DNA from: an uncultured Bacillota bacterium
Lineage (GTDB): Bacteria > Bacillota_I > Bacilli_A > RFN20 > CAG-288
DNA: 64,000 bases
Direction: 5' to 3'
Assembly (NCBI GenBank): GCA_949290645.1
Contig: CASESG010000003.1
Location: forward strand, 62,001-126,000
In this document: positions 26,932-33,423 of the stretch, in pieces
How the letters are laid out: each line of letters opens with the position of its first letter
Position numbering within the stretch: the first letter of the stretch is position 1
Position numbers and translations under genes: made by a program
The notes under the pieces: model-generated
Told to the model about the DNA's origin: nothing
Database searches by the model: none
The model's input: the letters and a program-made list of their open reading frames with translations, nothing else

Positions 26932-27579
26932 ATGGCGCGAAAGAAACAACCGAAGAGGACCAGAAGTGCACCGACAGTCGAGGAAATCGTTTCGCAGATC
27001 GTCGAACTGGAGAAACCGAGCTATGCCGCCTATGGCGAAAACGACGAGAACGGCTATCAGGTCTTCACTCCTTCTTTTATCGTGGAGGGAATGATCAAGG
27101 CCGTCGGCGAGAAGGAAATCGACGATTGGAACAGGACGATCCTCGAACCGACTTCGGGCGACGGCGCCTTCACCGGCCGCATCCTGGAGCGAAGGCTGAA
27201 GAAGGCGATGGGTGAGAAGGATTCCTTCCCTGCCAATGCCCTCCGTTCCTTGTCGACCCTTTATTCCGTCGAGATGGACAAGGAGCTGATGGAAAGGCAG
27301 AGGAACAACATCTTCACGATATTCATGAAAGCTGCTCGAAAGATGCAATCGCAGGACAATGCGGATTTGATAGCGAAGGCAAAGCGCATCATCGCCAACA
27401 ATTTCCTCTGGGCCATGACGAACATGGAGAACCCGATCACTCCGATGTCAGCGGACGTCGCCTATCGGATGCCCGAGGCACTGGAGGGAGAGCAGTTCGG
27501 AGTCGAATTCCCTGTCTGGACCATCGGAGACGATCTGACTTGCACGATGCATCGGGAACCTGTCGAGGTGGAGATATGA
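26932..27579 (+). CDS. Small N6-adenine methylase-like subunit with SAM-binding motif but no NPPY
   Basis: 215 residues. After a basic tail come QVFTPSFIVEGMI (residues 43-55, motif X of N6-adenine methylases) and a well-formed motif I, EPTSGDGAF (72-80), which binds S-adenosylmethionine. An acidic motif II-like YSVEMD (111-116) follows. No NPPY or DPPY catalytic motif is present and the protein ends soon after, so it cannot be a complete methyltransferase by itself. AAGGAGGG precedes the ATG. Its stop overlaps the start of the next gene by 4 bases. I infer a partner subunit of the downstream methylase. Base composition is like the core genome. Confidence 0.7.
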   Translation: MARKKQPKRTRSAPTVEEIVSQIVELEKPSYAAYGENDENGYQVFTPSFIVEGMIKAVGEKEIDDWNRTILEPTSGDGAFTGRILERRLKKAMGEKDSFPANALRSLSTLYSVEMDKELMERQRNNIFTIFMKAARKMQSQDNADLIAKAKRIIANNFLWAMTNMENPITPMSADVAYRMPEALEGEQFGVEFPVWTIGDDLTCTMHREPVEVEI

Positions 27580-29228
27580 GCGATAACCTGGAAGCGATCG
27601 AGACCTATCGCAAATACAAGACCAAGGTCGAGCAGACCGCGGAATATGTCGAGCATTTCGACATCCTGGAAACCATCACCAACGTTGGAAACGACGAGGT
27701 CTTCACGCCGAGGAAAGTCTGCGATGCCATGCTGGATTCCCTCCCGGAAGAAGTCTGGCACCATCCCGAATACCATTGGCTGAACCCCGCATCCAAGAAC
27801 GGAATCTTCGAGAGGGAGATTGCCCTTCGTCTCGACCAGGGCCTGAAAGACATCATTCCCGATGAACTGGAGAGAAAGAAGCACATCCTCCAGAACATGA
27901 TCTTTTCGATCGGACTGACCAAGTTCACCGCATTGGTCGCCCGAAGGACACTTTATTATTGTTCCTACGCCAACCGGAAAGACGACGGAATGAGAGATCC
28001 CAACGACGGCCATTCCGTCAACGGATACGCCATCGGCAACGGAACGTGGTTCGAGGACGAGGAAGGGAACGTCAAGACTCCCAAGGCCGAGCATGTCTTC
28101 GGAAACGACGGACGTTGCATCCATTGCGGGATCAACAGGAGCAGCAAGTATGCCGACGAGACGCAGATCGAGCATTACGCCTATGAATTCATCCACCAGA
28201 GGGATATTCACCAGTATGTCGCCGACACATTCTTCGGAGGAAACAAGGACATGAAATTCGACATCATCATTGGAAATCCGCCGTATCAACTGGATGATGG
28301 CGGTGCCGGCGCCTCGGCCAAGCCAATCTACCAGCTTTTCATCCAGAGGGCGATCGAGCTCAATCCCCGATATCTTTGCATGATCATTCCAGCTCGCTGG
28401 TATGCGGGTGGAAAAGGACTGGACGAATTCCGAAAGCAGATGCTTTCCGATAGACATATGAGAACGCTTGTCGATTTTCCGAATTCGCAAGAATGTTTTT
28501 CCAATTTCAATATAGCGGGGGGGGTATGTTACTTTCTTTGGGATTCTAGCCACATTGGAGAGTGTAACGTTTTCAACTTTAAAAATGGATTATGCGTTTC
28601 CTCTTCAAAACGAAATCTCGACGAATTTCCGATACTAATTCGGAATAATTATTCACTCGCCATCATTCAAAAAATCAAGAAAAAAGCAACCAAATTTCTA
28701 TCAGAAAAGGTATTTGCTAGAAATTATTTTTCGATTCCCACAACAATTAAGGGCACAAAGAACAAGGATGGAGTTCCTTGTTTGACTTCAAAAGGCCTCA
28801 TATTTCTTCAGCCAAATTTGATTTCGGATAAAAAAGGCATTTTCAACAAATATAAGATTGTAACGACATATGCGATGTCAGGCGGTAATAAACCAAGCAG
28901 AAACGGAAAGTATCAAGTGTTGTCATCATTACAAATTTTAAACCCAGGGGTTATTTGTTCTGAAACATATCTGATTTTGGATGCATTTGAGGACGAGAAT
29001 ATCGCTAACAACTATTTGAGTTATGCAACAACAAAATTTTATCGCTATCTCCTATTGCAATCGCTCACGTCGATTCACATCACGAAAGATACTTTCGCCC
29101 TTGTTCCGGATATTGATTTGAATAACAAAATAACTGACGATTTTCTTTCAAACCTGTTTGATTTGAGTGACGACGATAAGAGACAGTTTGATCAGACAAT
29201 TACTGAAATTTCTGACAAGGAAGATTAG
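27576..29228 (+). CDS. Eco57I-like DNA methylase subunit with NPPY and degenerate SAM motif
   Basis: 550 residues. EVFTPRKVCDAML (41-53) repeats the motif X found in the upstream protein. The motif I position reads NPASKNGIF (70-78), lacking the usual Gly-x-Gly. The catalytic IIGNPPYQ (231-238) is intact. An insert around residues 175-190 has a CxxC (CIHC) like a small zinc knuckle. The conserved IAGGVCYFLW (313-322) is encoded across a run of eight G at 28517-28524. From there the DNA turns strongly AT-rich; the C-terminal 230 residues are probably the target-recognition part. The gene starts by ATGA overlap behind GAGGTGGAG. Adenine methylation is the likely reaction. Confidence 0.75.
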   Translation: MSDNLEAIETYRKYKTKVEQTAEYVEHFDILETITNVGNDEVFTPRKVCDAMLDSLPEEVWHHPEYHWLNPASKNGIFEREIALRLDQGLKDIIPDELERKKHILQNMIFSIGLTKFTALVARRTLYYCSYANRKDDGMRDPNDGHSVNGYAIGNGTWFEDEEGNVKTPKAEHVFGNDGRCIHCGINRSSKYADETQIEHYAYEFIHQRDIHQYVADTFFGGNKDMKFDIIIGNPPYQLDDGGAGASAKPIYQLFIQRAIELNPRYLCMIIPARWYAGGKGLDEFRKQMLSDRHMRTLVDFPNSQECFSNFNIAGGVCYFLWDSSHIGECNVFNFKNGLCVSSSKRNLDEFPILIRNNYSLAIIQKIKKKATKFLSEKVFARNYFSIPTTIKGTKNKDGVPCLTSKGLIFLQPNLISDKKGIFNKYKIVTTYAMSGGNKPSRNGKYQVLSSLQILNPGVICSETYLILDAFEDENIANNYLSYATTKFYRYLLLQSLTSIHITKDTFALVPDIDLNNKITDDFLSNLFDLSDDDKRQFDQTITEISDKED

Positions 29229-29233
29229 ACAAT

Positions 29234-32215
29234 ATGAGAGTATTCCAATCGACAAATATCAACATTGTTGATAGTATCAAATTGAATGAAAAATCATGCG
29301 ATTTATTCTTGGATAAGAAATCGCCTCTTACCAAGAATTTGAGAATTATATACTTTTATACCCTTCCGAAAGCACAATGGCATGGCGTCAAGATTGGCAT
29401 GACGACGTGTCAACCGAACGAGACGATATGGGATGCCATTCGGAAACGCATCGAGAAGCAGGTGACGGAGCTCGCATTGTCGGAAGAGCAATATCGGAAG
29501 TTCGGTGATGTGAGAGAAGTCATCCATTGGGGCGTGGCCTTGGATTCCAAGAGCGAGGAGTTCAAGGACTACTATGTCCATGATGCCATCAAGAGGGCCG
29601 AACCGAAGATCGTCGTTCAGGACCAGGAGTGGTTCACAAACATCGAGCCGGATCGATTGATATCGATTTTCGAATCCTGTCGGAACAAGAACGTCTCCAA
29701 GGAGGTCTACACTCCGCGAAAGGAGCAGAGGGAATGCATCGATGCACTTCGAAAATATTTCGAGGACCATCCCATTGGCGGAAGGTTCCTTCTGAACTGC
29801 AAGATGCGCTTTGGCAAGTCGTTCACGACGTACAAGTACTGCGAGGAAGTCGGATTGGACAAGGTCTTGATCCTGACCTTCGTCCCGGCAGTGGAGGACT
29901 CCTGGAGAGAGGATCTGGAACACATAAAGAAGGAGTACGACTATTTCACCGATGCCGACCTGAGGAAGGATTCCTTCCTTCCGAATTTCCTTTCGAAGCC
30001 CTTTGTCCTGTTCCTAAGCCTTCAGAACTATCTTGGAAAGACCGAGGACCGGAAAGTCAAGCAGAAAATTCAGAAGCTCCAGGAAATCCCATTCGACCTG
30101 GTTGTCCTGGACGAATATCATTTCGGCGCCTGGAACGAGAGGACGCAGGACACGATCGTCGAGGACATCGACCAGAACTATCAGAAGGAACTTCTGAAGG
30201 CCCATGGACTCAAGGTCCTGGACAAGTTCCACATCCAGACCGAAAGGACCCTCTGCCTTTCGGGAACGCCCTACAAGGCGATTGCCAGGGGCGAATTCAA
30301 CTCCGAGAATACGTTCACCTATTCCTACTTCGACGAGCAGGAGAACAAATATCCCGATCCGGAGCATCCCTTGGTGGTCGACCCGGCATACGAGAAGTTC
30401 CCGGACATGAAGATCTTCGGATACAACATGGCCGAGCTCTTTCCGGACATGGCCTTGACCTGCGTTTCGGGCGACAAGATCCTGAAGAGAAACTATTTCT
30501 CGCTCAATCAGTTCTTTCGGACCGAAAAAGATGAGAACGGTGAAAGGCCCGCCAAGTTCGTCAACGAGGATCCGGTCCGCTATTGGCTGGACATCCTCAA
30601 GGGGAGAAGCGCCAGGGGAGAGAACTACCCGTTCGTCCATCCGCGGATGCTGCCCTCTGTGAAGGATTCTCTGTGGCTTTTGCCTACCATCCATTCCTGC
30701 AAGGCGCTTTCCGACCTGCTTGAGAAGGACGATTTCTTCAAGAGATACGAAATCATCAACCTCTCCGATCCGGACGTCGGGGCTGGGAAGAAAGCCCTGG
30801 ACTATCTCCATCTAAGGATGCGGGCGGCCGAGCAGTCGATTCCTCCGAAACTCGGGACGATTGCCATCACGGTCAACAAGCTCACCGTCGGCGTCACGGT
30901 CAAGCCCTGGTCCTCGGTCTTCGTGCTCAAGGACCTCACCAGTCCCGAATCCTACTTCCAGTCCATCTTCCGGATCCAGACACCCTATGTGAAGCAAGAC
31001 GGTTCCTTCAAGAAGGAGGGATTCGTCTTCGACTTCAACATCGACCGGGCCGCCTCCCTGCTTCTGAAGTATGCCGAGAATTCGGAAGGGAGCGGGAAGG
31101 TGGAGAAGATGAAGATCGCCTCTCTCATCGTCCGTCACCTTCCGATCTACATGAACGGAGACATGGACCATCCGATCTCGAAGGAGGTCTTCTACCAGCT
31201 GGCTCAGTTCGGCGACACCTCCGGAGAACCGCTGTCGAAGAAGATCGCGGACACCCGGAGGACCACAAGGATCCTCGACGACGAGACCATCGCCGAGATG
31301 CTCAACGACCCCAAGGTCCACGACATCATCAAGAAGGTCTTCGCCCATTCCAAGTTCCAGAAGGCCAAGACAAGGACACCGCCTTCCCTTCCCGACGACG
31401 ACTTCATCAAGAGGGAGACCGACGAGGGAAGAAAGATCGGATACGAGAAGGGAATCGCCGATTCCGGGAAATATGTGGATTACGATGACAAGGACATCCA
31501 GGATGCCTTCGACAAGAACATCCAGGAGTATCTGACCCAGTGCTGTCCCAAGGACTATGACGAAATCCGCGAGAAATGCTTCAAGAACGGCTTCTGTCGC
31601 GGCTATGAGAGAGGCGTCAACGCCCCTATCCGCAAGCTCAACTGCGGCAAGGAGGACGGAATCCAGTTCGTCGAAAGGGTGAAGGAGAGATTCGGGAAGG
31701 ACATCGTCTATGTCGAGAGGACAAGAAGGGACATCGAGAACTTCGTCCGTCACCATCTCAATGACATCCAGAACATTCCAGAGCAATACCGTCACTCCCT
31801 TTACCGGAGATGGTACTGCGATTCCTTCCAGAGGGCTCTCCGCTCGTCCCTGAGACCGAAAGTCCGACTGGAGGAAGGCGAATCGATCGAGGACGCCGAC
31901 AACGTCCTTCGACATATTCTCTCCCGACTTTTCGAGTTCCTCTACATCTCCGTCTATCGGGAGACGACCTTCCGGGAGATCTTCAAGAACGCCGATCCCA
32001 AGGTCTTCCTGGAAGCCGTCGGCATCAGCAAGGAAGACTTCGAGGCGCTCAACAAGTACAAGATCTTCGAGGAACGCACATTGGACAACTACATCAAGGA
32101 GTTCTTCGTCAACGAGGAGCTGGGGAAGAACACCATGGCGATGAGCGGAGAGGAGAAGGGAAAGTATCGCAACAGCTTCGACTGGTTCGGGTACGGAATC
32201 AAGGACGAGCGATAA
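29234..32215 (+). CDS. GIY-YIG-like domain fused to SF2 helicase (restriction subunit candidate)
   Basis: 993 residues. Near the N-terminus, IYFYT (39-43) and VKIGMT (52-57) resemble the GIY and YIG strands of GIY-YIG/T5orf172 nuclease domains. Helicase motifs follow: MRFGKSFTT as Walker A (191-199), LDEYHF as DExH box (292-297), LSGTPYKA as motif III (342-349), KLTVGVTVKPW as motif V (549-559) and QSIFRIQT as motif VI (576-583). The 400-residue C-terminus has no recognised domain. It begins 5 bases after the methylase stop, so the three genes form one operon. A DNA-translocating restriction subunit is the natural reading. Its first 140 bases are AT-rich like the end of the methylase gene. 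Confidence 0.75.
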   Translation: MRVFQSTNINIVDSIKLNEKSCDLFLDKKSPLTKNLRIIYFYTLPKAQWHGVKIGMTTCQPNETIWDAIRKRIEKQVTELALSEEQYRKFGDVREVIHWGVALDSKSEEFKDYYVHDAIKRAEPKIVVQDQEWFTNIEPDRLISIFESCRNKNVSKEVYTPRKEQRECIDALRKYFEDHPIGGRFLLNCKMRFGKSFTTYKYCEEVGLDKVLILTFVPAVEDSWREDLEHIKKEYDYFTDADLRKDSFLPNFLSKPFVLFLSLQNYLGKTEDRKVKQKIQKLQEIPFDLVVLDEYHFGAWNERTQDTIVEDIDQNYQKELLKAHGLKVLDKFHIQTERTLCLSGTPYKAIARGEFNSENTFTYSYFDEQENKYPDPEHPLVVDPAYEKFPDMKIFGYNMAELFPDMALTCVSGDKILKRNYFSLNQFFRTEKDENGERPAKFVNEDPVRYWLDILKGRSARGENYPFVHPRMLPSVKDSLWLLPTIHSCKALSDLLEKDDFFKRYEIINLSDPDVGAGKKALDYLHLRMRAAEQSIPPKLGTIAITVNKLTVGVTVKPWSSVFVLKDLTSPESYFQSIFRIQTPYVKQDGSFKKEGFVFDFNIDRAASLLLKYAENSEGSGKVEKMKIASLIVRHLPIYMNGDMDHPISKEVFYQLAQFGDTSGEPLSKKIADTRRTTRILDDETIAEMLNDPKVHDIIKKVFAHSKFQKAKTRTPPSLPDDDFIKRETDEGRKIGYEKGIADSGKYVDYDDKDIQDAFDKNIQEYLTQCCPKDYDEIREKCFKNGFCRGYERGVNAPIRKLNCGKEDGIQFVERVKERFGKDIVYVERTRRDIENFVRHHLNDIQNIPEQYRHSLYRRWYCDSFQRALRSSLRPKVRLEEGESIEDADNVLRHILSRLFEFLYISVYRETTFREIFKNADPKVFLEAVGISKEDFEALNKYKIFEERTLDNYIKEFFVNEELGKNTMAMSGEEKGKYRNSFDWFGYGIKDER

Positions 32216-32580: not shown

Positions 32581-32685
32581 ATGAGTAAGTTTGTCACAAA
32601 GCAAAGCGAGATCGAAGAGACCGGTATTTTGCTTCCGCCCAAACACGATTCTTATTACTTCTAAACGGATCATGTCGATTCGTTG

Positions 32686-33423
32686 ATGAATCCATTGGAG
32701 ATGTTCTTTGGGCTGGTCAGCAGTGACAGAAACAACGATCCACAGGAAACGACGCCGGAAATGGAAGGATATGTCTGCTTTTGTCGATGTCTTTCCTATT
32801 TTCAAAGCGAAAACGTCGCAATGTGGAAAATGTATGCAGATAAAAGAAAAGAAGAAAGCAGCAAAGCGATAATGAATGAAAAAGGAATTTGTTTTCGTTA
32901 CACTTCCTCAATTATTGAGAAATTTGAGGAGAAAGTGTGCCATCTAAGTATCGTTTTCAAAAACAACAAAGAAACGAGCACTCGTTATGATGCCAAGGAA
33001 CTCGTCCTGAAAGGACAGCTGCGCATCCAGCTTCGGAATGTTGTGTATTACAAGAAGGCGGGTCATGGCAATCTGCTGCTGAGATCGACGCACAAGGCCC
33101 ATGTGAGCGATGAAATCTTTGAATCTGTCTACTTGAAGAATCCGATGAAGAACATCTGCTGGTCCTACGAGACGGAAGCGAAACTTTATTGTTATCTCTC
33201 CGATTCATTCCTGAAGGGAATTGTCGGAAGGAAACCAATTACGGATGTCATCGACGGGATTGTCATTACCTTCAAGAATGATGAAAGAACGAGTATTCGA
33301 ATTCGAAGGCATCCCGAAGAGAGGAATGGGCTGAATCCACAAATTCATTACGACAAGAATGTACAAATCGAAGACTCTGAATTGAAGGGCCATGTCCGAT
33401 TGGAAGCAAATCAGTCTAAATAG
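32686..33423 (+). CDS. DUF2971-like protein, N-terminus interrupted
   Basis: 245 residues from ATG 32686. The core resembles DUF2971: CFCRCLSYFQSENVAMWKMY then KGICFRYT, and later ICWSYETEAKLYC, matching the (S)xxxxxxxMWxxYAxxxxGxCxxF and WxYExE pattern. DUF2971 genes often sit in defence or accessory islands, and their biochemical role is unknown. No Shine-Dalgarno precedes 32686. A better start (ATG 32581 behind GAGGGAGAG) lies in the same frame but meets a single TAA at 32662-32664, so the gene looks broken by one stop codon. AT-rich, unlike the core genome. Confidence 0.5.
   Translation: MNPLEMFFGLVSSDRNNDPQETTPEMEGYVCFCRCLSYFQSENVAMWKMYADKRKEESSKAIMNEKGICFRYTSSIIEKFEEKVCHLSIVFKNNKETSTRYDAKELVLKGQLRIQLRNVVYYKKAGHGNLLLRSTHKAHVSDEIFESVYLKNPMKNICWSYETEAKLYCYLSDSFLKGIVGRKPITDVIDGIVITFKNDERTSIRIRRHPEERNGLNPQIHYDKNVQIEDSELKGHVRLEANQSK

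Follow-up and report, generated by a model that had tools for sequence, protein, structure and literature searches.

A putative restriction-modification gene trio with the motifs of a gamma-class N6-adenine methylase divided between two proteins

In the window, that is, the 64,000-nucleotide stretch of contig CASESG010000003.1 from an uncultured Bacillota bacterium analyzed here, positions 26932-32215 are occupied by three genes (open reading frames (ORFs)) that form a compact block on the plus strand, with an ATGA overlap joining genes 1 and 2 (Table 1). These genes probably encode a restriction-modification (R-M) system in which the gene 1 product and the C-terminal half of the gene 2 product together form a heteromeric N6-adenine methyltransferase. 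Gene 1 would contribute the half that binds S-adenosylmethionine (SAM), with motifs X, I, II, and III; the C-terminal part of gene 2 would contribute the catalytic half, with the NPPY motif, along with the target-recognition domain; and unmethylated DNA would be cut by gene 3, a predicted helicase-translocase that has a GIY-YIG-like nuclease at one end. In its N-terminal half (hereafter, P2N or the KxG half), gene 2 appears to repeat the gene 1 half in SAM-blind form: KxG takes the place of the GxG of motif I, and the acid of motif II is lost. The complementary motifs, their invariance, the gene linkage, the natural gene fusions, and the minimal versions found in phages are all read directly from the sequences; from these features, we infer the formation of the heteromer, a shared active site, N6-adenine chemistry, phage restriction, and a role for the KxG half.

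Motif complementarity and conservation of the trio

In the first-pass annotation of the window, gene 1 was described as a protein with methylase motif X (VFTP) and an intact motif I (EPTSGDGAF) but no NPPY, and gene 2 as one with VFTP, NPASKNGIF at the place of motif I, and NPPY. Both descriptions were borne out: the motifs were located in the proteins (215 amino acids (aa) in the case of gene 1), and a scan of the gene 1 protein for [NDS]PP[YFW] found none. Overlooked at that stage was the loss of the motif II acid in gene 2, which has SIGLT vs SVEMD in gene 1. Neither gene of the window combines motif X, a GxG motif I, the motif II acid, and NPP[YFW] in one chain. In Pfam, gene 2 matches PF07669 (Eco57I; E = 8e-34), gene 1 has no match, and gene 3, which contains the SF2 helicase motifs, matches ResIII and does not match the Mrr nuclease; the N-terminus of gene 3 reads as GIY-YIG/T5orf172-like, and one of its homologs is annotated 'GIY-YIG nuclease family protein'. 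Sequence searches of PDB with genes 1 and 2 gave no useful match, and the sole matches of the gene 1 profile were weak ones to HsdM-type M subunits.

The same trio, which the first-pass annotation suggested looking for, was found in other genomes. Among the 279 genomes of the order searched, 10 others encode full-length homologs of gene 1 (41-49% identity), and the loci of these homologs keep the order gene 1, gene 2, gene 3 wherever the contig is long enough. Relatives of gene 2 are found on plasmids of Enterococcus, Lactococcus, Lactiplantibacillus, Corynebacterium, Variovorax, Rhizobium, and others; in the plasmid loci inspected, a relative of gene 1, annotated 'N-6 DNA methylase', 'hypothetical protein', or otherwise, lies directly upstream. 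Scans of IMG/VR contigs contributed more than 100 further loci (individual loci are denoted by L and a number below). Using profile models for the modules, we assembled 83 complete, sequence-distinct systems, which span Bacillota, Actinomycetota, Pseudomonadota plasmids, and viral contigs.

The complementary motif pattern noticed in the window proved to be general across these systems. Gene 1 retains motif I (E..xGx[G/A]) in 83/83 and the motif II acid in 82/83. The E, P, G, G, and F of motif I are invariant in the short form of gene 1 (P1a; n = 59), with an acidic motif II in 58 of the 59 proteins; in the long form (P1b; n = 24), motif I reads E..CGE[A/G]P, the second glycine usually being A, and motif II is acidic in all 24. 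In P2N, lysine replaces the first glycine of motif I in all 53 systems with separate genes and in all 30 helicase fusions (83/83, KxG), the second glycine is kept throughout (83/83), and threonine replaces the motif II acid in 53/53 separate-gene systems; an R occupies the lysine position in L214, a relative that scores as incomplete. The homology of gene 1 with P2N (HHalign probability 97%, E = 1e-10), taken together with the motif patterns, implies that the system contains two copies of one half-methylase. Judging by sequence, the gene 1 copy can bind SAM, and the P2N copy should not.

Homologous loci that consistently lack gene 1, named beforehand as the observation that would speak against a two-protein enzyme, were not what we encountered: all 83 complete systems with a KxG half have gene 1, and the KxG-half loci without it are contig ends or fragments, plus the locus L162 discussed below. 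Some loci show peculiarities of their own. L073 (4789-5981) has a tandem pair of gene 1-type genes (170 and 223 aa) ahead of a single gene 2; in L069, of the same order, the trio is broken, with genes 1 and 2 in frame-shifted pieces; and in L051 (53-11062), on the Enterococcus faecium plasmid pEfmO_03, a helicase-fused relative adjoins the resistance genes optrA and fexA.

Module rearrangements, phage versions, and the KxG half

Common layouts are the three-gene one, with P2N and the NPPY half in the same protein (46 loci), and gene 1, in either form, next to a single helicase-P2N-NPPY half protein (18 loci); altogether, 80 loci hold all four modules. The loci L077, L087, L094, L095, and L096 encode a direct fusion of gene 1 with the NPPY half, in the canonical motif order, and the helicase end carries P2N; a gene 1-NPPY half fusion is also present in L082, at a contig end. 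In L055, L103, L111, L181, and L187, there are three separate proteins, namely, gene 1, the NPPY half, and helicase-P2N. The modules are thus truly separated by a border directly before NPPY. The single-chain motif order of the gamma class is seen only in fusions, for example, in the five loci listed first and in L216, L220, and FNU4_28, which come from phages or viral contigs.

Phages in which gene 1 and the NPPY half stand alone show which halves belong together. In the viral contigs L216 and L220, the two are fused, and in L197, they are adjacent genes; neither a helicase nor P2N was found in the records of these three contigs. The gene 1 part of L220 shares 81% identity with gene 1 of the trio in L173, and its C-terminal part is close to the NPPY half of L173 gene 2, the P2N of L173 being missing. 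The complete genome of Tenacibaculum phage PTm1 (224,680 bp) encodes the half-methylases in two genes: ORF277, the NPPY half, starts MKFDIIVGNPPY and lacks motif I, and ORF279 is gene 1 in the long form; a search of the whole record detected no helicase or P2N. This pair from an isolated phage (L276 6010-8442) is annotated 'DNA methyltransferase' and 'restriction endonuclease subunit M'. In Fusobacterium phage FNU4_28, a gene 1-NPPY fusion makes up one ORF. Such versions might plausibly provide immunity to the phage, as the modifying part alone would keep the specificity of the trio without the cutter.

In another group of phages (L128, L129, L133, L135, L136, L137), genes for NPPY methylases are followed by one for a gene 1-like protein. 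In L129 and L137, the latter with several tandem methylase genes, the NPPY methylases keep an intact GxG motif of their own; the arrangement of this group is possibly the ancestral state that preceded motif loss. Lone short gene 1-like proteins (130-165 aa) are present in many IMG/VR loci, for example, L189, L201, and L217; in the viral contigs that encode them, no NPPY half was found close by.

The window copy and its close relatives share 70-86% identity in P2N, compared with 23-33% in the recognition domain and about 38-45% in gene 1. Where the genes are separate, P2N shows higher conservation than gene 1 in 95% of the system pairs, the distances of the two correlate with r 0.93, and the H/C/C/H insert is invariant; where P2N is fused to the helicase, its conservation is lower than that of gene 1, save for T, P, K, G, and Y. 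The KxG half accompanies the helicase, and the phage minimal versions lack both. It is best read as a conserved pseudo-module that is blind to SAM, belongs with the helicase, and seems to be dispensable for methylation; this combination suggests that its role is, most likely, to couple site recognition to the restriction subunit.

The recognition domain of the window copy stands out by its foreign composition, seen in the GC content at third codon positions (GC3). Gene 1 and P2N have a GC3 of 0.73-0.74, and most of gene 3 has 0.73-0.85; the value falls to about 0.36 in the gene 2 recognition domain and is 0.56 over the initial 110 codons of gene 3. The region of the sharp drop is 28416-29560. 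The 9 relatives compared show smaller GC3 steps or none. A recent exchange of the recognition domain is likely, which would be a sign of a system selected to change specificity. Gene 2 is a single-copy gene in the source genome. A search for the borders of a mobile element did not find a direct repeat of the upstream tRNA-Ser downstream of the locus. Past the trio, a small ORF (32683-33423) has a weak likeness to DUF2971 (E = 0.015) and to the PADLOC candidate PDC-S31 (E = 4e-4).

Table 1. Genes, motifs, and predicted modules of the trio, in coordinates of the window
Feature	Positions	Strand	Description
Gene 1 (P1, 215 aa)	26932-27579	+	Predicted SAM-binding half of a gamma-class N6 methyltransferase: motifs X, I, and II and a stretch resembling motif III; lacks motif IV
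Gene 1 motif X	27061-27072	+	VFTP, aa 44-47
Gene 1 motif I	27145-27171	+	EPTSGDGAF, aa 72-80
Gene 1 motif II	27265-27279	+	SVEMD, aa 112-116; putative SAM ribose acid
Gene 2 (P2, 550 aa)	27576-29228	+	Putative pseudo-SAM half (P2N), zinc-ribbon-like insert, NPPY core, and target-recognition domain (P2C)
Gene 2 motif X	27699-27710	+	VFTP, aa 42-45
Gene 2 altered motif I	27783-27809	+	NPASKNGIF, aa 70-78; K74 in the first-glycine position
Gene 2 zinc-ribbon-like insert	28092-28196	+	Invariant H173, C181, C184, H207
P2C	28251-29225	+	NPPY half with the recognition domain; in phages, found together with gene 1 and no other module
Gene 2 motif IV	28275-28286	+	NPPY, aa 234-237
Gene 2 target-recognition domain	28566-29210	+	Foreign composition (GC3 about 0.36, 0.74 in the rest); 23-33% identity to close relatives that share 70-86% identity in P2N
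Gene 3 (P3, 993 aa)	29234-32215	+	GIY-YIG/T5orf172-like N-terminus and SF2 helicase-translocase; predicted restriction subunit

Structure models and alternative explanations

An AlphaFold2 model of gene 2 alone, built on 37 sequences, has the fold of a gamma-class methylase with a recognition domain (predicted local distance difference test (pLDDT) score 83.9, predicted template modeling (pTM) score 0.83). The predicted fold is that of a complete methylase similar to CamA, the orphan N6-adenine methylase of Clostridioides difficile, on which it superposes with Z 22.9 and a root mean square deviation of 4.3 (407 residues aligned; model residues 28-530); it also superposes on BrxX, LlaGI (Z 19.0), and M.TaqI. 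P2N occupies the usual place of the SAM half in this model, so there is no obvious seat for gene 1. In the model of the L220 fusion (pTM 0.61), the gene 1 part lies outside the canonical position, and CamA matches only residues 188-492; P2N rows covered the gene 1 region in the alignment behind this model and may have misled the prediction. Neither of these two models shows a composite active site of gene 1 and gene 2. Such predictions weigh against a gene 1-gene 2 heteromer, and so do three other considerations: L162, a contig fragment of 30.7 kb, carries gene 2 and the helicase without a recognizable gene 1; active enzymes, such as M.TaqI, can have relaxed motif I glycines; and we found no experiment on any member of the family in the literature.

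An alternative, which draws its best support from the gene 2 model, is that gene 2 alone is a complete N6 methyltransferase that binds SAM via a relaxed KxG, with gene 1 as an accessory or regulatory protein. In gene 2, the methylase core and the recognition domain are joined in one protein, which models as a whole CamA-like fold, and the KxG half is the best conserved part of gene 2 among close relatives. However, the canonical SAM contacts are altered in gene 2, with the lysine present in all 83 systems and the motif II acid gone, and are kept in gene 1; phages discard the KxG half and retain gene 1; and some bacteria fuse gene 1 to NPPY and have the KxG half moved onto the helicase. We consider this alternative unlikely. 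That genes 1 and 2 are two independent methylases or decaying remnants without a joint function is very unlikely. Each protein by itself does look defective, and databases file the pieces as separate type II methylases (PDLC03390, PDLC03375), but the invariance of the motifs across the 83 systems, the linkage across phyla, the fusions, the acquisition by phages, and the apparent recent exchange of the window recognition domain all argue against decay.

The two-protein methylase proposed in the first-pass annotation gains support from sequence comparison, with an amendment: gene 2 is more than an NPPY half and also carries a gene 1 homolog whose motif I is filled by a lysine. One form that the heteromer model might take, which we advance tentatively and do not favor, is an exchange in which gene 1 and the KxG half are alternative, competing partners of one NPPY/recognition half. 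With gene 1 docked, the complex would methylate; with the KxG half docked, it would be SAM-blind but still recognize the site, and the helicase would be recruited to restrict. The homology of the two halves is compatible with such an exchange, as is the tracking of the helicase by the KxG half, both in the loci with all four modules and in the phage versions that lack the two; the gene 2 model, too, suggests it by placing the KxG half in the seat of the SAM half. A fixed assembly of all modules, however, fits equally well.

Relation to known systems and implications

Like CamA and the gamma-class enzymes of the Eco57I/M.TaqI type, gene 2 matches PF07669 and has the CamA fold including the recognition domain in the model; unlike them, it has KxG and T at motifs I and II, and the SAM motifs are in another protein. 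Two-chain methylases are known in which one partner may have a degenerate SAM site, namely, METTL3-METTL14 and TRM61-TRM6. In METTL3 and TRM61, the SAM site and the catalytic site are within one subunit, whereas in the trio, motif I is on one protein and NPPY on another. The Type ISP enzymes (LlaGI, LlaBIII) share with the trio the combination of an SF2 helicase, a gamma methylase, and a recognition domain, with a similar domain order in the fused helicase-P2N-P2C relatives. The trio differs from them in consisting of separate polypeptides (3 ORFs), in what appears to be a GIY-YIG-like end in place of the Mrr nuclease of Type ISP (PMC4666363), and in the extra SAM-half gene, which stays separate even in the helicase-fused relatives. 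In Bacillus subtilis DnmA-YeeB-YeeC, an adenine methylase adjoins helicase and T5orf172/GIY-YIG genes; DnmA differs in being a single MmeI-like methylase chain, and no gene 1/KxG-half arrangement is described for it (PMC9973331). Splits of cytosine methylases have been made artificially in M.HhaI and M.SssI (PMC3439449, PMC6298699).

Several other assignments were considered and rejected. The type IIG profile of PADLOC (PDLC03626) is matched by gene 2 (profile positions 999-1345) and gene 3 (profile positions 141-600) as separate proteins, that is, there are two proteins rather than a combined endonuclease-methylase chain. Type III Mod/Res enzymes have the beta-class order, with motif IV before I, whereas motif I precedes NPPY in the fused relatives; gene 3 has a ResIII helicase. 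There is no HsdS gene of a Type I R-M system within 26932-32215, the recognition domain being in gene 2, and the motif classes differ from those of an M.AquI-like cytosine split.

The system appears to be a variant form of R-M with a gamma-class methylase. PDLC03626 corresponds to the fused helicase-gene 2 form, PDLC03375 to the NPPY half, and PDLC03390 to the long form of gene 1; the PADLOC models file each piece as an enzyme of its own, and the split of one active site is unrecorded there. We found no description of the gene pair or of a natural split between the SAM motif and NPPY in the full-text literature, a search that left REBASE and subscription journals outside; a survey of jumbo phages mentions circularly permuted methylases but not split ones. 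As far as we found, the pieces are already catalogued, and the split with a pseudo-SAM twin is unreported in the sources searched.

Databases name the pieces as complete, separate type II or IIG methylases even though half of the active site that one would expect is absent from each. If the heteromer is real, methylome assignments at such loci would need both genes, and the family would include a natural N6 methylase with one active site made from two chains, the division falling after motif III and before motif IV. The invariant KxG half would then offer a handle on how an R-M complex chooses between methylation and cutting, and phages PTm1 and FNU4 provide directly testable minimal versions.

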